The translations under genes and the position numbers were made by a program. From an uncultured Clostridia bacterium (GTDB lineage: Bacteria > Bacillota > Clostridia > Oscillospirales > CAG-272): 64,000 nt of DNA. The notes beneath the pieces were generated by a model, which ran no database searches, was not told the DNA's origin, and saw nothing but the letters and a program-made list of their open reading frames with translations. Positions 19,122 through 46,263 of this stretch are shown here, one piece after another. Where the stretch lies: NCBI GenBank assembly GCA_944381085.1, contig CALWJX010000006.1, forward strand, positions 1-64,000, in the 5' to 3' direction. Each line of letters opens with the position of its first letter. The first letter of the stretch is position 1.

Positions 19122-21593
19122 TTAAGCTTCAGCTTCAGAGCCGGAACCCTCGTCCTCGTTTCCGGTCTCCGAAGAGCCTTCCTCGCCGCCCTGCTCAGGC
19201 GTTTCGGGGTCGGGTGTTTCATCTGCCGCGGTAACCGTAATCGTTACGGGACCAGCGATAAGATTGTCATAACCGTCGTTTGCAAAGAAATATACCTTGT
19301 AGGTTCCCGCCGTGTATTTTTCCGCGTCGAGAACTATTTCGGATGCGTCTTTGGTATAAATGAAGCTTATCGAAGTGACCTCTTCTCCTCCGGGAACGGC
19401 GTTTTCGGCGTAAATTCCTATCCAGTCTTTACCGCTGTCGTTTCTCGATTTAGCGGTTATTTTAACTGTCTCGCCTACGGCGTAAGTTTCTTTGTCAAGA
19501 GTCATGCTTCCGAGTACGGTATCGGGAACAGAGACTTCTCTGTAGGGAAGAACCTTTATACTTGAGAATTTTACGGTACCGCTTCTTACGGCAATTCCGA
19601 CCTGAGCGGAACAGGTGCTTGCCACAAGAGTATTTTCTATTGTTTCCGTTGTGCCGTCAGCCAGTGTGATAACTGCTTTCTGCGCAAATTTTATCGCGGG
19701 TTCTACTTTGGTAAGATCCTCATACTCAATTTCTCCGGAAAGGGTAATAACGGCAGCCAATTTGTCATCAACAATTATGGAAACATTCTTGCCGTCGTCA
19801 GCCATTGTAAGCGTGGAGCCGGTCACATTGACGGTATAGATCTTATTGTTGACTCTTGAAGGCGTGTTTTCGTCAAAGTATTTGACAATTATATTGAGTT
19901 TACCGTCAACTATCTGAGCGTATATGCCCGAGCCGCCGCATTTTCCGTTTCCGTCGGTTTCATAGAAGTTGTTTATCATAAATGCGCCGTTGGGATTGTT
20001 GGGTTCGGGAATATCTACCGAGTTTACAATGCGTGAACCGCGCACAAAGGCATATGCGTCGCCGGTCATGCTGTTGATGTCAAGTATAAGCGCGTATCTG
20101 CCGTCGGCGGAGGTGTACATCTCGTTGATACCGCCGAACTGATATTCAAGCTCTTCATTATCGTTCGTCGCTACCTTGTGAGGCTCACTGGCACCGTAAC
20201 CGAACTCAAACATATCCTTAAGATCGCTTTCCTTGAGGTCTGTTCCGTCGGTCTGACCCGATATATCGGATTGGAAGCTCTTGGAGTTGTCGCTCATAAT
20301 CGCGTCATACTGCTCTGCCGCCTCAACGGACGGGAAGAACGCTATCCATTGAATGTCTATCGATTTTCCGCCGGTAGCGTCGGTAAAGAAGTCATAACGG
20401 CAGTAATTTATCAGATTATCGGTGATGTATGTATTTGCCGAAAGGTCAACCGTAGCGATATGCCATTCGCCGTCGTTTATATACGTTACGGGAAGCGCGT
20501 CGGGACCCGCCCAACCGGCGCCTGAACCGGAGAAGAATTCACCCGAACCTTCGGAAGTAGTGCGGTATTTCACGGCGAGGAATCTGTCTCCGGTAAGGTT
20601 TGAACCTATTGTAACGACTGTTACATACGGGTCATTATGACTTGAAGTAAGGGTAATGTAGTTGTCTGTAACGGTTGCGGATTCCAAGCCCTGATTGAAT
20701 GTCTGACCGCCGGTATTGTCTGCAGACTCTTTGATTTGCTCGGGAGTTATCGGACCGGCTGTCGGACCGTACTCATACAACTCGGCGGCTTCCTTGCTCT
20801 GGAAGAAAGCGACATACTCTATATCGATGGAACAGCCCTCGGGCAGATCGTATCTTGCCCACGTTTTGTTTGCTTCATCTTCATAATATTTTTCGCCGTT
20901 TTCGTCAAGCTTGTAACCGGCTTCAAGCGGGTCAAAACGGAAGTATGATATTTTCTCTCCGTCGTATATTTCGGCGTCGATAAGCGGCTGGGTGTCGATT
21001 ACAAGAATGCGCCATTCGCCGTCCGCAAGAATAGGAGCCTGAAGCATACTTTTATCGTCCTGAGGACCGGTTCCGCTCGACGCGAGATAGAACTGCATGT
21101 AAGCATTGGTGGCTGTGGAAGACCTGTATTTAATTGATACAAACCTCGCGCCGGGTTGAACGGTTCCCGGATTCCATAGATAACCGTAGGGGTCTCCGTC
21201 CTCCGGAGTTATTGTGACGTAGCTTTCATCTTCGCTTATTGCTATGGATTCTATTCCGTTTGTGCCTACCATACCGGAGATTTCTTCAACGCCGGCAACT
21301 ACTGTAGGCTCCATCGGGTCGGGAGGAGTGGTGGGTTCCTCAGTTTCGTCGTCCGGAGGAGTCGTCGGATCTTCATCATCCTTAGGCGGAGTTGTCGGGT
21401 CTTCATCGTCCTTAGGAGGAGTCGTCTCTTCAGGCTTTGATGTGGGCGGCTCCGTTTCGTCTTCGGTCGGAGTTTCCGTTACCTGCGGAGTCGTACTGCC
21501 GCTTGTCGGTTCTTCGCTTTCGTTGTTGTTGCAGGCAACGATAGCGACAACAAGCACAAGCAGCAGGGAAATGCTGATCAGTAGCTTTTTCAT
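19122..21593 (-). CDS. Multidomain surface lipoprotein (paralogue 1)
   Basis: The protein has 823 residues from the ATG at 21593 (GAAAGGA precedes it). A lipoprotein signal peptide ends at IVAC with Cys21, then comes a Pro/Thr/Glu-rich linker with a PPKDDEDPTT repeat. Two homologous jelly-roll-like modules follow (about 110-290 and 300-445); each holds a DGEW-R/H-I-x-x-x-D motif and ends in a D-I-x-W/Y-I/V-A-F-F segment. A concanavalin-like beta region comes next (about 460-690). An Ig-like module starts at TLDKETYAVGETVKITAK and has the KDWIGIY motif. An acidic tail closes the protein. It is probably a glycan-binding or surface-display protein. No catalytic motif was recognised. Confidence 0.85.
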   Translation of the reverse strand: MKKLLISISLLLVLVVAIVACNNNESEEPTSGSTTPQVTETPTEDETEPPTSKPEETTPPKDDEDPTTPPKDDEDPTTPPDDETEEPTTPPDPMEPTVVAGVEEISGMVGTNGIESIAISEDESYVTITPEDGDPYGYLWNPGTVQPGARFVSIKYRSSTATNAYMQFYLASSGTGPQDDKSMLQAPILADGEWRILVIDTQPLIDAEIYDGEKISYFRFDPLEAGYKLDENGEKYYEDEANKTWARYDLPEGCSIDIEYVAFFQSKEAAELYEYGPTAGPITPEQIKESADNTGGQTFNQGLESATVTDNYITLTSSHNDPYVTVVTIGSNLTGDRFLAVKYRTTSEGSGEFFSGSGAGWAGPDALPVTYINDGEWHIATVDLSANTYITDNLINYCRYDFFTDATGGKSIDIQWIAFFPSVEAAEQYDAIMSDNSKSFQSDISGQTDGTDLKESDLKDMFEFGYGASEPHKVATNDNEELEYQFGGINEMYTSADGRYALILDINSMTGDAYAFVRGSRIVNSVDIPEPNNPNGAFMINNFYETDGNGKCGGSGIYAQIVDGKLNIIVKYFDENTPSRVNNKIYTVNVTGSTLTMADDGKNVSIIVDDKLAAVITLSGEIEYEDLTKVEPAIKFAQKAVITLADGTTETIENTLVASTCSAQVGIAVRSGTVKFSSIKVLPYREVSVPDTVLGSMTLDKETYAVGETVKITAKSRNDSGKDWIGIYAENAVPGGEEVTSISFIYTKDASEIVLDAEKYTAGTYKVYFFANDGYDNLIAGPVTITVTAADETPDPETPEQGGEEGSSETGNEDEGSGSEAEA
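21361..21593 (-). repeat. 233-bp duplicated 5' module (copy 1; copy 2 at 24031-24263)
   Basis: The signal peptide and linker coding region of the first lipoprotein gene matches that of the second without gaps and with six differences in 233 bases. The sequence upstream of the ATG and the C-terminal coding regions are unrelated. This points to recent duplication or gene conversion limited to the secretion module. Confidence 0.9.
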
Positions 21594-21642
21594 AACAGTT
21601 TCCTTTCTGTAAAAATGTTGTTTTTGCAGCTTTTGATATGAA

Positions 21643-21670
21643 ATTATATCCACAGTATTAAAATATTCAA
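21643..21670 (-). promoter_or_regulatory. Possible second promoter, TTGAAT-N16-TATAAT
   Basis: On the minus strand TTGAAT (complement of 21665-21670) and TATAAT (complement of 21643-21648) lie nearer the first lipoprotein gene than the TTGCAA-type promoter at 21731-21759. Confidence 0.4.
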
Positions 21671-21730
21671 CTTGGAAGTACTTTGATATAATTAAATTGA
21701 AAAATCCAAAACTGCAATTAACTTGACATA

Positions 21731-21759
21731 ATTATATCACTTCGTTTTCGGATTTGCAA
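21731..21759 (-). promoter_or_regulatory. Promoter TTGCAA-N17-TATAAT of lipoprotein 1
   Basis: On the minus strand TTGCAA (complement of 21754-21759) and TATAAT (complement of 21731-21736) are 17 bases apart. The other two lipoprotein genes have the same -35 and spacing. The rest of the 21760-21960 gap is AT-rich and shows nothing else. Confidence 0.6.
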
Positions 21760-21960
21760 GTATATTATTTCACTTTTGTGCAAGATGTTAATATTTTCAA
21801 CGATATACACATAAAATAATTCAAAATTGTTTTAAAAAATATCCTTAAATTTCCATTCTGAATGGAAAACTGTTCAAATAAGCTGAATTTTGTCTGAATT
21901 TTATCTGAAATCTAATTGAAGGTATAGAGACAAAATGCTCAATTAGTGGTGAAAATAGAC

Positions 21961-21992
21961 AAAAATGCCGGCTGTTCTGAGGAACAGCCGGC
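21961..21992 (-). terminator. Rho-independent terminator for the second lipoprotein gene
   Basis: On the minus strand GCCGGCTGTTC (complement of 21982-21992) pairs with GAACAGCCGGC (complement of 21967-21977), followed by five T after one A. Confidence 0.8.
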
Positions 21993-22079
21993 TAAACACT
22001 TGGTTTATTATTCAATTATTTGTCGAAATAAGCTTTGAAATTCAAGATTATTAACTGAAATTGACGAAATGCTTCTGAA

Positions 22080-24263
22080 TTATGCTTCTGCTTCTTCTCC
22101 GGAGGTATCTTCTCCCGCGTCGGGGGTGTCGGGGTTTTCTTCTCCCGCGTCGGGAGTTTCTTCCTCAGAGGCTGCTACGCCATAGAATTCGATAGCGTCG
22201 ATTCCGTAGAAGGTTCCGGGGAGCGAGTCAATGGTAACATATACAGCCCCGTTGTAGGTAACCTCGGAAAGGTCGATGATAGCGTAATCGGGAGCTGACC
22301 AGCCACCGGATCTTACAACATAGTCGGTTGATGCTATTACTTTTGATGCATCCGCAAAATTAACAACATTGTCGTTTACAAGACCTATCTTAGTGCTTTC
22401 GGCTTTATCGTATTCTCCCTGAGTTGTCGCGCTACCGTCAAAAGCATATCTGATCTTTACATATTTATAAAGCGAAAGATCAAGTTCTCCGAGATAAATA
22501 TTTCCTTGATGAATTTTTGCCCATTTATTTGTGTATTTTGCATCTTTGGCTGCTTGTTCACTGTCCGGCGCCTGCAGTCCGGGAGCATGACCGGTAACCG
22601 CCGAGTTGTCAAGCTTGTCAAAGTCAACGTCATATAAGAGTTCATCGGTTGTTGCGGTACTTACTGTTATGTTTGCGAGGTAACCCTGATCAAACAGCTG
22701 ACCGTTGAGGTAAACTTCAACTCCCTCGGCTGTTCCTTCCTTAGCAATCCAAGGGGTCCACTTATCACCTTCGCCGGTAGCCTGCGCTTCATAATAAACC
22801 GTGCAGTTGCTCAGGTTGAGAGCCGAAACATCGATGGTAAGCGCTTTGCAGTTTACATGATTTTCTATGGTCGTCGAAAAAATAGGATCTTTTGCCACAG
22901 TGGTCGCGTAATCGGTATCCCAAATCCATACCTTGAAGGTTCCGACCGTGTCGGTCTTATCATATGTTGCCATGTTGTAAATCTCTATAATGTCAAGCCA
23001 CTGACCCTCAGCAATGGTGAATTTCTGACCGAATGCGCCGCCGTCACACATCGGGTTACCCTGTCCGCCTTTTCCGAGATCGACTTTGGACTGTGTTGTC
23101 ATATCGGGACGCTCTGTTCCGCCGGGAACCTTAACGCCCTTGATTGTGAGGAATGTAGCAATCTTAGACGGGTCGGCTTTCGAAACCGCCGCGAAAGTAA
23201 CGTCAACTGTCTGCCACTTGTATGCAGAGAGATCTGCGACAAGAGCGTTTGAACCTTTAAACAGTGCATGTATGGTTGCATCTTCCATGCCTGCAAAGTG
23301 ATTGGGAGCAGGCTCTCCATCTACTCCGGGACCGGCGTCATACCAAACCTCACCATCAACAGTCCATATGTATTTACTTACGCCTCCGGTAAGGCCGAGC
23401 CAACCATCCACTGTTAACTTTGTGGTTGTGGGCTGTACAAAAGTGTCTATGGTATCAACGCCCTTATCCGAATTTCCGCCACGTCCGGAGAAGTTTTGAT
23501 CATTTGAAGTTGCACCTTTGCCGTTAATTACATCAACAGAAGAATTCCATTTTTCGCTTACTTCCTCGTATACAGTTCTTATGACTTTAATGTCACCCCA
23601 GACATTAAGTCTGTATACGGTATCGTCGGTAGCTTTTACAAGGAGGTAAAGGTCGTATTCGCCGCCTTCGATGTCGGCTGTGTCTATCATGATCTCATAA
23701 CGCTTTACATTGGGCTGACCGGATGCGGCTGCAAGACCGTTTTCGGCCTCCAATACCCATTCAGCGTTCCAGACCGCCTCGCCGTCGTCTCCGAGAGCGT
23801 ATCCGAATTCAGCGATCTGCTTGTCGCCAATACCTGCCCATCCGCGGAATCCGAACGAGGTCAGATTGTCAACGACGATGCCGTCGGGACGGTTTGTCTG
23901 AAGCCATGTATGAGAACTTCCGTCGTTTACAATAGATCCGTTTTCATAGTATGTATCGGGAGACATAGCGGGGACGTTTGCAACCTCAGACCAGCCGGTC
24001 TCTTCCTCCACGGTGGTCTCCTCTTCTTTGGTTGTCGGATCTTCATCATCCTTAGGCGGAGTTGTCGGGTCTTCATCGTCCTTAGGAGGAGTCGTCTCTT
24101 CAGGCTTTGATGTGGGCGGCTCCGTTTCGTCTTCGGTCGGAGTTTCCGTTACCTGCGGAGTCGTACTGCCGCTTGTCGGTTCTTCGTTTTCGTTGTTGTT
24201 GCAGGCAACGATGGCGACTACAAGCACAAGCAGCAGGGAAATGCTGATTAGTAACTTTTTCAT
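22080..24263 (-). CDS. Multidomain surface lipoprotein (paralogue 2)
   Basis: The protein has 727 residues from the ATG at 24263. The signal peptide with lipobox Cys21 and the Pro/Thr/Glu linker are nearly identical to paralogue 1. The body differs. One copy of domain A (about 115-245) has the motifs GFRGWAGIG and IAEFGYALG. One copy of domain B (about 265-410) has NGKG, LTVDGWLGLTGGVSKYIW and a V-T-F-A-A strand. Two further beta-rich modules follow, the last ending in a YVTIDSLPGTFYGIDAIEFYG strand pattern. An acidic tail ends the protein. Domains A and B are shared with paralogue 3. Glycan binding is a plausible but unproven role. Confidence 0.85.
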   Translation of the reverse strand: MKKLLISISLLLVLVVAIVACNNNENEEPTSGSTTPQVTETPTEDETEPPTSKPEETTPPKDDEDPTTPPKDDEDPTTKEEETTVEEETGWSEVANVPAMSPDTYYENGSIVNDGSSHTWLQTNRPDGIVVDNLTSFGFRGWAGIGDKQIAEFGYALGDDGEAVWNAEWVLEAENGLAAASGQPNVKRYEIMIDTADIEGGEYDLYLLVKATDDTVYRLNVWGDIKVIRTVYEEVSEKWNSSVDVINGKGATSNDQNFSGRGGNSDKGVDTIDTFVQPTTTKLTVDGWLGLTGGVSKYIWTVDGEVWYDAGPGVDGEPAPNHFAGMEDATIHALFKGSNALVADLSAYKWQTVDVTFAAVSKADPSKIATFLTIKGVKVPGGTERPDMTTQSKVDLGKGGQGNPMCDGGAFGQKFTIAEGQWLDIIEIYNMATYDKTDTVGTFKVWIWDTDYATTVAKDPIFSTTIENHVNCKALTIDVSALNLSNCTVYYEAQATGEGDKWTPWIAKEGTAEGVEVYLNGQLFDQGYLANITVSTATTDELLYDVDFDKLDNSAVTGHAPGLQAPDSEQAAKDAKYTNKWAKIHQGNIYLGELDLSLYKYVKIRYAFDGSATTQGEYDKAESTKIGLVNDNVVNFADASKVIASTDYVVRSGGWSAPDYAIIDLSEVTYNGAVYVTIDSLPGTFYGIDAIEFYGVAASEEETPDAGEENPDTPDAGEDTSGEEAEA

Positions 24264-24522
24264 ACTTTTTTGTCCTTTCTTAATTTTATTATTTGTCAGG
24301 GAAGTATGCCGGGGTGGAGAATACCGAGCGCAAAATCTGAATTTGTTACAATATAACATGCGATTTGATACATGCGCGTGTTCGCGTGTATTCCGCAAAC
24401 ATACCGTATTTCGTATATCGGGAATTTTATTTTGACAACGTGTCCTTGCGTGACAAGTCTACTTTCCGTATACTTTATGCCCTTCATATTTTGTGCTTTT
24501 ATACCCTGACTAAATTATAATT

Positions 24523-24551
24523 ATTATATCATGGAAGATGACAAATTGCAA
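24523..24551 (-). promoter_or_regulatory. Promoter TTGCAA-N17-TATAAT of lipoprotein 2
   Basis: On the minus strand TTGCAA (complement of 24546-24551) and TATAAT (complement of 24523-24528) have 17-base spacing, giving a leader of about 250 bases. Within 24264-24522 no gene or riboswitch was recognised. Confidence 0.55.
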
Positions 24552-24753
24552 TAGTATATTTATGAGTTTGTCGGTAATGCCGATATTTTCTACAAATTTT
24601 CAATGAATTATGTTATACAAGAGTAAGTTTGTGCTTTAATATATTAAAAAACTGCGGTAAATGAGAATTTTTTTCCTGAATATTTTGTTTTTCTTTAAGA
24701 TTTCAATTCGTCACTTTGCATGTTTGCTTAAAAAAATACACAAAAAATATGTG

Positions 24754-24809
24754 CAAAAAAAGGATTGCCACATCCGCCGATAAGATCGGTTTTTGTGACA
24801 ATCCCTTTT
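24754..24809 (-). terminator. Rho-independent terminator for the third lipoprotein gene
   Basis: On the minus strand GGGATTGTCACA pairs with TGTGGCAATCC around a 19-base loop and is followed by seven T. One internal mismatch is present. Confidence 0.7.
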
Positions 24810-24853
24810 ATTCATTTTAAAACGTGGTAAAAAGTTCTACTTTAAGGCGATTT

Positions 24854-26515
24854 TTATTCCGCGTCGTCTGATTCGGAGGGAGTATTCTCAGCGGGAGTGT
24901 TGCCTTCTTCTGTAGGATCGCTTTCATCTTCGGACGGGTCGTCAGGAGTTCCCATTATCTGAACGTCCTTAACTGTTCCTATAATGCAAAGAGTACCGTC
25001 TTCGGCGCGTATAGCTGCAAATGTTACTGTGACTTTCTGACCTGCGTATGCGGAAAGGTCAGCGGAAAGAGCACTGAAAGTAGCGTTGGCAGCAAAATCA
25101 GTAAAGCCTTGACTTTCGCCTACACCTTGAACACCTTCGTTATTTTCAAGATTTGCATAACCTGTAGCGGGACAATCTATCCATGTAAGACCGTTATCAA
25201 GACTGTAAACATACTTTGATATTCCTCCGGTTGTAAGACACCAACCGCCGATAGTAAGTATGCTGTCTTCTCCTGTAGGTACGGCATCTTCTATAATGCT
25301 TTCGTGATTATTTGTGTTTGCGCCCATTCCGCTGTAGTGAGCACTGCCATTCGGAGCTTCATCGGTAACAGGACCCTTGCCGTTTACAAAGTCAACGGAA
25401 GTATGCCATCCGTCGGTTGTTACTTCGTAGTTCTTAATTGAAAGAGTGAATTCATGGATTATAACAATGGAGTCGTCTTCAAGTTTTACAAGGGAGAATA
25501 TCTTGTAATCTCCGGGGGTGAGGTCTGCAAGCGGGATTTCTATCTGGAATCTTGAACCGTACTGTCCGGCGTTTCCGTCGGTCAATACGCCATCTTCTGT
25601 AGCTACCTTGAAGTCACCGAATACAGGTGTTCCGTAATTTATGCGGTAACCGAATTCTTTAATAGGCTGGTCAAATCCGATCCAACCGCGTGTAGCGCAG
25701 CTGTCGTGCTTTTCTCCGGGCTCAACCGGTACTATATTACCTTGCGCCTCAAGCTTAGTCGCGAATTGACCGTCCGTCTCAAAATACATTTCGCCGTTGA
25801 AGTAGAAAGTATCGCCGGACCAGTTCTTGAAACCGGTATCCGCGTCATCTTTGGCGGCGTAGTCGGAAAGAGTAACGGTGTATGTAGCTAAAATAACTTT
25901 CTTGCCGTCTGCGAGTTCAACCAGGAAACTTATCTGATGTTCGCCGTCCTCAAGGTCAAGCGCGGGAACAAGAATCCTGAAGCGAAGCGCGTTTTCGCCG
26001 CCTGCTGCCGCAATGGCATCCGCGTCCGCGTCACTGTCAAATGCCGCGATAAAGTCCTCGCTCAATACGGGTTCTTCCTCGTCAATCCTGTAACCGAACG
26101 ACTCGATAGCCTGACTGAATCCTACCCATCCGCGGATACCTACGTTTACGCGGTCGGTGCCTGCGGCGATATCGATCTTGTTATCTGTAGCGGTTACGTC
26201 CGCGTTGTTGACGATCGCGGAATCTACGGAACTTCCTGTATTGCCGACTCTTTCGTCCTCAAGCTCATAATACTCGGGCTCTGTCTCGGCGGGAGTGGTT
26301 TCCTCGGGAGTAGTCTCCTCGGCGGTAGTCTCTTCGTTTGTGGTTTCTTCGGCAGTGGTCTCTTCGGCGCCGGTCGTGGGAGCTTCGGTTTTGTCCTCGG
26401 TTACCGCGTCGGTAGTTCCGCCTGTCGTCGTGCCCTCATTGCTTTCGTTGTTGCACGCGACAACCGCAAGCACCAGCACGAGCAAAAGAGAAGCACAGAT
26501 AAGTAACTTTTTCAT
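24854..26515 (-). CDS. Multidomain surface lipoprotein (paralogue 3)
   Basis: The protein has 553 residues with lipobox VVAC (Cys21). A linker of repeated E-E-T-T units spans about 35-80. Then come two copies of domain A (about 90-217 with RGWVGFSQAIESFGYRI and about 235-362 with RGWIGFDQPIKEFGYRI). One domain B follows (about 369-520 with FVNGKG, SGMGANTN, LTIGGWCLTTGGISKYVYS), and then an acidic tail. Only its signal peptide and domains A/B relate it to its neighbours; its linker DNA has diverged. No catalytic residues or LPxTG sorting signal were seen. It is the most upstream of the three leftward genes, each with its own promoter and terminator. Confidence 0.85.
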   Translation of the reverse strand: MKKLLICASLLLVLVLAVVACNNESNEGTTTGGTTDAVTEDKTEAPTTGAEETTAEETTNEETTAEETTPEETTPAETEPEYYELEDERVGNTGSSVDSAIVNNADVTATDNKIDIAAGTDRVNVGIRGWVGFSQAIESFGYRIDEEEPVLSEDFIAAFDSDADADAIAAAGGENALRFRILVPALDLEDGEHQISFLVELADGKKVILATYTVTLSDYAAKDDADTGFKNWSGDTFYFNGEMYFETDGQFATKLEAQGNIVPVEPGEKHDSCATRGWIGFDQPIKEFGYRINYGTPVFGDFKVATEDGVLTDGNAGQYGSRFQIEIPLADLTPGDYKIFSLVKLEDDSIVIIHEFTLSIKNYEVTTDGWHTSVDFVNGKGPVTDEAPNGSAHYSGMGANTNNHESIIEDAVPTGEDSILTIGGWCLTTGGISKYVYSLDNGLTWIDCPATGYANLENNEGVQGVGESQGFTDFAANATFSALSADLSAYAGQKVTVTFAAIRAEDGTLCIIGTVKDVQIMGTPDDPSEDESDPTEEGNTPAENTPSESDDAE

Positions 26516-26687: not shown

Positions 26688-26716
26688 ATTTTAACACATA
26701 TTTTGGGTTTTTGCAA
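26688..26716 (-). promoter_or_regulatory. Promoter TTGCAA-N17-TAAAAT of lipoprotein 3
   Basis: On the minus strand TTGCAA (complement of 26711-26716) and TAAAAT (complement of 26688-26693) are 17 bases apart. The spacer resembles that of the promoter at 157-185. Confidence 0.55.
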
Positions 26717-26900: not shown

Positions 26901-26998
26901 AAATTAAGTACCGACTTAAGGGCGGGCGCCGCTTGATTCTTTCAGTATACAATCTCCCGCTGAAAAAATTGAAGGACGGACTCAGCCACTTATAGAAT
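26901..26998 (+). repeat. Dispersed triple-hairpin repeat, copy B
   Basis: This copy has AAATTAAG at its left end, a GGGCGGGCGCCGCTTGATT block, the core ATACAATCTCCCGCTGAAAA and a degenerate right end (GGACGGACTCAGCCACTTAT). It lies upstream of the promoter of the YjbR-type gene. Confidence 0.75.
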
Positions 26999-27041
26999 AT
27001 GTCGGTTTTGCATTTTCGTGACTGAATAGGAAACTTTTCTA

Positions 27042-27119: not shown

Positions 27120-27911
27120 ATGAGTGATATTATTAAAATTTCCTGTCGTGCCGACATTCTTCGTTTCGCGGAAGAAGAGTACGGGACAAAACCGGAGTAT
27201 CTGTGGAGTAAGTTTCCGGAATACGCGGTACTTCGTCACGATGATAACAAAAAATGGTATGCGGTCGTTATGGAAGTGCAGAGAAAAAAACTCGGTATTC
27301 CGGAAGACGGATATACCGATATAATGGTAGTCAAATGCGGTCCTGTGGTCGGCGGAGATATGCTTTCGGAGAGGGGAATTTTGCCGGCGTACCATATGAA
27401 CAAATCAAACTGGATTACGGTGCTTCTTGACGGTTCGGTAGAAACCGGCTTGATTTTGTCGCTTTTGAAAATGAGCTTTGAACTTACATCAAGTCGCAAA
27501 ACTCCCGGTAAAACCCGTACCGAAAACAGAGATTGGGTAATACCGGCAAACCCCCGATACTATGATGTGGAGAGCGGATTTTCGGAAAGTCCGGACGGCA
27601 TTATAATATGGAAGCAAACCAACAATATTGTTGTAGGAGATACGGTTTATATTTATCTCGGCGCTCCGGTCTCCGCAATCAGATATAAGTGCAGTGTGGT
27701 TGAAGTCAATATTCCGTATAGGTATAAGGATGAAAACATCAGAATTGATCGCGCGATGCGTCTTAAGCTTTCGAAACGCTATGACAGGATAAACATCGGT
27801 ATAGACATGCTGAAAGCGCACGGAGTGTATTCGGTGCGGAGTCCCCGGGGCATGCCGAAGAGTCTTATACACGAAATTGACGCCATGTATCATTCCGAAA
27901 TACAGGGTTGA
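27120..27911 (+). CDS. MmcQ/YjbR-type protein fused to an EVE/PUA-like domain
   Basis: The 263-residue protein has an N-terminal MmcQ/YjbR-type domain (about 1-120; EYLWSKFPEYAVLRH and KWYAVVM are typical). A second domain starts at WVIPANPRYYDVESGF and contains VGDTVYIYLGAPVSAIRYKC, the pattern of EVE/PUA-like domains that read modified bases. YjbR proteins adopt a CyaY-like fold and are often annotated as DNA-binding without proof. GGAGGTG precedes the ATG. The gene appears to be a single unit. A role in sensing modified nucleic acid is inference. Confidence 0.75.
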   Translation: MSDIIKISCRADILRFAEEEYGTKPEYLWSKFPEYAVLRHDDNKKWYAVVMEVQRKKLGIPEDGYTDIMVVKCGPVVGGDMLSERGILPAYHMNKSNWITVLLDGSVETGLILSLLKMSFELTSSRKTPGKTRTENRDWVIPANPRYYDVESGFSESPDGIIIWKQTNNIVVGDTVYIYLGAPVSAIRYKCSVVEVNIPYRYKDENIRIDRAMRLKLSKRYDRINIGIDMLKAHGVYSVRSPRGMPKSLIHEIDAMYHSEIQG

Positions 27912-34554: not shown

Positions 34555-34673
34555 TTTGGCACCTCGTAATTTTATTTCTCATTCTATACCGATCAGTGAG
34601 CAATTTATTCTTAAATTAAAACGAAATTGACGCGCAATTAACAGACTGAAAGATTTTACGGTGTTTTATGACT

Positions 34674-34787
34674 GAATTAAGATGTTCTCCGCCTCAAAAA
34701 AGGCGGGCGCCACTTGGCTTTTTCGTCGATAGATACAATCTCCCGCTGAAAATGTTGAATGACGGTGTTTAGCCTCTTATTGAATTT
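34674..34787 (+). repeat. Dispersed triple-hairpin repeat, copy C
   Basis: This copy has GAATTAAGATG at the left, CCGCCT/AGGCGG hairpin, the core GATACAATCTCCCGCTGAAA and TTGAATGACGG with an imperfect last stem. Its right end touches the stop codon of the response regulator gene (34786-34788). Confidence 0.8.
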
Positions 34788-46002: not shown

Positions 46003-46263
46003 TGATTACTTCACGCTGCATACATACAAAAACTGCAGTATGCAGCCGAAAAAATATTATTTAACTTATTACTTCACGCCGTATACAAAAACCCGGACAG
46101 TTTTGCGCGGAGCAAAACTGCGGTATACAGCCGAAAAAATATTATTTAATTTATTACTTTACGCTGTATACAAAAACCCGGACAGTTTTGCGCGGAGCAA
46201 AACTGCGGTATACAGCCGGTATAATAATATTAAATTGATTATTTCACGCTGTATACATTATAT
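46003..46263. repeat. Tandem array of nested hairpins, 85-bp period
   Basis: The anchor ACTTCACGC (variants allowed) occurs at 46008, 46071, 46156 and 46241, giving steps of 63, 85 and 85 bases. Each full unit forms two nested stems: GCYGTATAC with GTATACAGC outside and CAGTTTTGC with GCAAAACTG inside. The two full units are almost identical; the first unit has lost about 22 bases of the inner stem and the last is truncated. The array fills most of the gap between the alcohol dehydrogenase start and the MATE gene end. Nothing else is seen in that gap. Confidence 0.85.

Follow-up and report, generated by a model that had tools for sequence, protein, structure and literature searches.

Three putative surface lipoproteins of an uncultured Clostridia bacterium assembled from new Ig-like and lectin-like modules

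The window analysed here, a stretch of 64,000 nucleotides, belongs to a 2.7-Mb assembly of 104 contigs from an uncultured Clostridia bacterium. It contains three leftward genes on the minus strand, here called P1, P2 and P3:

19122 to 21593, minus strand: P1, lipoprotein of 823 aa (signal peptide, linker, J1, J2, L, I, acidic tail)
22080 to 24263, minus strand: P2, lipoprotein of 727 aa (signal peptide, linker, A, B, C, D, acidic tail)
24854 to 26515, minus strand: P3, lipoprotein of 553 aa (signal peptide, linker, A1, A2, B, acidic tail)

The N-termini, read directly from the sequence, have the form MKKLL...IVAC or VVAC with the lipobox cysteine at position 21 in all three proteins, and each combines n- and h-regions with the pattern [LVI][ASTVI][GAS]C. 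The signal peptide is followed by a linker of 61–71 residues rich in Thr, Pro, Glu and Asp and by β-rich modules, and each protein ends in an acidic tail of 26–29 residues without Lys or Arg. This confirms the initial annotation, which had described three leftward lipoprotein genes with this layout. None of the proteins has a catalytic domain, and the genes, with UppP, an RNase M5-like gene and asd as neighbours, lie outside any sugar-uptake gene cluster. Searches of Pfam and NCBIfam gave no match above cut-off for any of the three, PDB profile searches yielded no credible match, and literature searches retrieved no paper on these domains. A surface role is well supported by the anatomy, and the proteins are presumably surface-exposed. 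They would sit on the outside of the membrane, held by their lipid anchor, and the flexible Thr/Pro/Glu linker would carry the β-sandwich rod outward. The P3 linker contains a 15-nt in-frame repeat (window positions 26290–26368) that is longer by one unit (5 aa) in the sister species, and hence linker length varies by slippage without a frameshift.

Each gene is flanked by its own predicted promoter and terminator:

26688 to 26716, minus strand: predicted extended −10 promoter of P3
24523 to 24551, minus strand: predicted extended −10 promoter of P2
21731 to 21759, minus strand: predicted extended −10 promoter of P1
24752 to 24808, minus strand: intrinsic terminator of P3
21967 to 21992, minus strand: intrinsic terminator of P2
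19059 to 19084, minus strand: intrinsic terminator of P1

The hairpins with T-runs 3' of the three genes are strong (z −5.1, −6.8 and −5.9), and the promoter pattern TTGCAA-N14-TG-N-TAWAAT lies 137–259 nt upstream of each start codon. P1, P2 and P3 are thus each predicted to form their own transcription unit, in line with the initial annotation. Within the window the pattern occurs at three sites, all before P1–P3, and at none in shuffled sequences, a count that is partly circular because the pattern was derived from these three sites. Genome-wide, there are 20 copies versus none for the reversed control. The other copies mostly precede housekeeping genes, identified from their N-termini as, for instance, pheS, rpmB, hom, gdhA, alr and rimP, and the same promoter stands before modular lipoproteins in three other genomes (G016, G068 and G158). 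A dedicated regulon was therefore rejected. Sharing a promoter class with housekeeping genes suggests strong expression of P1–P3, and we read their promoter as probably strong and constitutive.

The window also contains two kinds of intergenic repeat. A repeat of ~80–120 nt at positions 26918–27000 and 34666–34786 is dispersed in many copies through the genome (73–85% identical), and the sister genome contains at least 20 of them; it has no Rfam match, a tRNA being the sole match of that search, and no significant RNA fold. A tandem palindromic repeat, GTATAC...CAGTTTTGCGCGGAGCAAAACTG...GTATAC, lies at positions 46060–46230, and the sister genome has roughly 15 copies of it or more.

P2 and P3 share modules A and B:

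25841 to 26263, minus strand: P3 domain A1, Ig-like, with RGW and FGY motifs
25418 to 25840, minus strand: P3 domain A2, Ig-like; AlphaFold2 pLDDT about 87–97 over most of the domain
24935 to 25417, minus strand: P3 domain B, Ig-like; contains the Asp-box SLDNGLTW and is hyperdivergent relative to the sister species
23580 to 23996, minus strand: P2 domain A
23118 to 23579, minus strand: P2 domain B

The three A copies are 33–34% identical to one another, and the two B copies are 38% identical (BLASTP 9e-21). Profile comparison of A with B (hhalign) gave a probability of 94% and a P of about 1e-7 over 100 columns, in an alignment that brings GW, FGY/KYxYS and a D-G turn into register. The AlphaFold2 model of P3 A2-B (pLDDT 83, higher in A than in B) consists of two sandwiches whose elements follow one another in the same order, and Foldseek returned tandem Ig/FN3 chains. 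The predicted structure is an Ig/FN3 β-sandwich, with confidence for A and with moderate confidence for B. Judging from the profile comparison and the model, A and B are distant branches of one predicted Ig/FN3-like superfamily, which rules them out as separate families. Hence, the initial annotation was right that P2 and P3 share domains absent from Pfam and NCBIfam, but not that these are two separate types; the structure prediction and profile searches it proposed returned homology between A and B and a generic Ig fold, and Foldseek offered no functional match.

One A-containing protein exceeded the cut-off of GH115_C (PF17829), over an A copy. Isolated A members matched no family in Pfam or NCBIfam, and no single A copy reached GH115_C. 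The protein concerned (L126, 6285–10355, minus strand) is secreted and has 1357 aa and seven A-type domains; no other A carrier was seen to exceed this cut-off. The exact Asp-box S-x-D-x-G-x-T-W occurs in B as SLDNGLTW, and 5 of 23 B members matched Pfam BNR weakly; the family is otherwise without Pfam or NCBIfam match.

The remaining modules are found in P1 and in the C-terminal half of P2:

20754 to 21308, minus strand: P1 jelly-roll J1
20295 to 20753, minus strand: P1 jelly-roll J2, CBM4/6-like in the model
19524 to 20294, minus strand: P1 domain L, ConA/legume-lectin-like β-sandwich
19212 to 19523, minus strand: P1 domain I, Ig-like, with KDWIGIY motif
22653 to 23117, minus strand: P2 domain C, unnamed; also in another protein of the same genome (L108)
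22170 to 22652, minus strand: P2 domain D, unnamed; in lipoproteins elsewhere it follows PA14 on the C-terminal side

J1 and J2 are related (32% identity, 5e-16). Structure models covered P1 J2-L in addition to P3 A2-B, and the J2-L model was confident (pLDDT 92). Among its best Foldseek matches was SGBP-B (7kwb, E 3.5e-5). For J, the matches included a GH43 accessory domain (8hcj) and CBM4 and CBM6 chains, with TM scores of 0.5–0.6 on the target, and the longer J-L alignments were to legume lectins and SGBP-B. The predicted structure of J is the jelly-roll fold of carbohydrate-binding modules, and yet none of the 43 J/L members matched a CBM family in Pfam or NCBIfam; one weakly matched SGBP_B_XBD (0.0077). 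The modules listed in the initial annotation are real, including two jelly-rolls and an Ig-like module in P1, where J1 and J2 are related, J2 is a jelly-roll in the model and I is Ig-like. However, L (P1 residues 434–690) and C and D (P2 residues 383–698) had been overlooked.

Two comparisons, one within the locus and one with a sister species, point to exchange of segments. The first concerns the leader cassettes:

24031 to 24264, minus strand: P2 leader cassette, 97.4% identical to 21361–21594 of P1
21361 to 21594, minus strand: P1 leader cassette, 97.4% identical to that of P2

These first 234 nt, which span codons 1 to 78, stand amid unrelated upstream DNA and modules, which argues for a recent copy or conversion of leader and linker. 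Homogenisation of leaders within genomes is suggestive in three cases (G000, G016 and G117) but not consistent, with 5 of 11 within-genome pairs lacking a match.

The second comparison concerns the P3 orthologue of the sister species (genome G202, contig CASEEB010000046.1, locus L107/L179), where 19.4 kb is 92.0% identical. In 300-nt windows, A1-A2 of P3 is 95–99.7% identical to the sister, at the top of the background distribution. In contrast, windows wholly or mostly in B are 66–76% identical, lower than any of the 368 background windows, whose minimum is 80.7%. Likewise, dS is 0.06 in A1 and 0.19 in A2 versus 1.2 in B, compared with 0.32 in asd and 0.35 in the neighbour gene at 27120. The identity break falls at the A2/B boundary, and the simplest reading of the divergence of B is module replacement by recombination. 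Wherever divergence was measurable, dN/dS was 0.07–0.22 in linker and modules; it was low throughout and therefore gives no sign of positive selection, which is not supported. Diversification is, as far as these alignments indicate, by segment exchange and not by positive selection.

An alternative explanation might be that the mosaic is an assembly or binning artefact, with a chimeric contig end in the sister genome and collapsed repeats in ours. Both assemblies are fragmented (104 and 350 contigs), and the sister contig ends inside P3, truncating B. However, B of the sister species is an in-frame positional orthologue with homology over 136 codons, the break falls at the domain boundary, and the P1/P2 tract lies within one contig between distinct promoters and modules. 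We therefore regard an artefact as very improbable. P1 and P2 were not found in the sister assembly, but this is only 86% complete and the contig ends in P3, hence their absence cannot be claimed.

Among 12 congeneric genomes, locus DNA was recognisable only in the own genome and in this closest sister; a match in G199 covered 45 nt within B. Comparison among related genomes, as the initial annotation had suggested, thus describes an accessory locus with module and leader exchange, and not invariant housekeeping. Relatives of each of P1–P3 occur in 18–25 of 196 genomes of the host's family, and at the order level 10 of 394 genomes contained A, with two other families represented among them. 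Related proteins reach 4264 aa with permuted module order, and architectures differ between genomes. By a simple pattern, 33 of 92 carrier ORFs, many of them partial, are lipoprotein-like and another 33 otherwise secreted-like.

The module families are fused to or adjoin glycan-active domains. Partners include F5/8-C, dockerin, NAGPA, PA14, SASA, CBM9, LamG, sialidase-like BNR_2, cohesin and GH106-like domains, and GH123 and GH130-like domains in the own genome. For instance, one lipoprotein (L207) has D C-terminal to PA14, and its neighbours on the chromosome are a xylose-isomerase-like gene and a gene for an FGGY sugar kinase. Other carriers have no obvious glycan role (amidase, phosphoesterase, TIR-LRR and C39 peptidase). 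A and I modules are fused to N-acetylmuramoyl-L-alanine amidases, which, together with the strong housekeeping-type promoters, would fit structural cell-envelope lipoproteins, their modules packing or binding wall polymers of the bacterium itself instead of external ligands. We consider this quite unlikely, given that P1–P3 are accessory and that architectures vary from genome to genome.

One carrier in another genome of the family (L123, 364–6345, minus strand; G158) has 1994 aa, with an N-terminal TIR domain and one apparent transmembrane helix, followed by a Thr/Asp/Glu/Pro/Gly linker, A-J-J-D and a BspA-type LRR region. Its layout appears receptor-like, with the TIR domain inside and the LRR outside. 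This joining of A, J and D to an LRR, the Ig-rod architecture and the confinement of module replacement to the distal B domain would also suit adhesins in which A/B and the jelly-rolls bind mucosal proteins of a host or other bacteria, and in which module exchange evades the host's antibodies or phages. Yet the partner domains are mostly glycan-active and positive selection is lacking. No invertible promoters or recombinase-type inverted repeats were found at the locus and the linker repeats of 15 and 30 nt keep frame, so that phase variation was rejected. Searches of phages for P2 relatives and of plasmids for P1 relatives found none, and an origin from either was rejected. In our view, protein- or host-binding adhesins are an unlikely explanation.

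We find it reasonably likely that P1–P3 are separately transcribed, probably abundant glycan-binding surface lipoproteins that diversify by swaps of modules and leaders. Glycan binding is inferred because of the fold and the partner domains of J, L and D; the abundance and a nutritional role of the proteins are likewise inferred. The Ig-like A, B and I would serve as spacers or adhesive repeats, while J, L, D and probably also C may act as carbohydrate-binding modules for glycans from plants, microbes or mucin. Glycans captured in this way would be kept at the cell surface, close to glycan-active enzymes that are secreted or lipid-anchored. Homologous recombination among paralogues and sister species may swap entire modules as well as leader/linker cassettes. 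The initial proposal of a diversifying surface system for glycan or host binding thus stands for the surface lipoproteins, the module exchange and the glycan link of J, L and D, but for host binding we found no evidence. A bolder and rather speculative extension is that a combinatorial surface system operates across the whole family, with this locus as one of its outlets. Each genome would then copy its own leader/linker cassette onto interchangeable, unnamed Ig- and lectin-like modules by domain-bounded recombination between paralogues and species, yielding new ligand specificities.

P1–P3 belong to a widespread, ordinary adhesin-like kind of protein; it is the module families that are new. 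At least six of these (A/B, C, D, J, L and I) lack a Pfam entry, although they recur in surface proteins across a large family of uncultured Firmicutes. Once named, they would give many hypothetical proteins an annotation, and some probably include carbohydrate-binding modules that are new. In the domain-bounded mosaic there is also a clear-cut example with which to study how gut surface proteins acquire specificities.

A and B share their fold class with Ig/FN3-like accessory domains such as the CbhA X1 modules, GH115_C, Y_Y_Y and InhA-like MAM domains, and the FN3-like pair of CbhA was among the top structural matches of A2-B, with low TM scores. However, A and B have signatures of their own (RGW...FGY and NGKG...GGW...Asp-box). 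Chitobiase and sulfite oxidase have Ig-like domains known to contain single Asp-boxes (PMC2716378); similarly, B has one copy of this BNR β-hairpin in an Ig-like sandwich, and not a propeller repeat. J resembles the CBM4 and CBM6 jelly-rolls in predicted fold and in fusion to glycoside hydrolases, but has no detectable sequence membership in any Pfam CBM family.

SusE, SusF and SGBP-B of Bacteroidota are lipid-anchored, non-catalytic proteins in which Ig-like spacers are followed by glycan-binding β-sandwich modules. P1–P3 are similar in their lipid anchor, lack of catalysis and order of Ig-like and β-sandwich modules, and SGBP-B (7kwb) is among the best structural matches of P1 J-L. In contrast, the host here is of a Gram-positive-type lineage, the proteins have no Pfam match to those families, and no SusC/SusD pair or PUL was recognised among the neighbour genes read around P1–P3. 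P1–P3 are best seen as functionally like the SGBPs of Bacteroidota, but outside those families.
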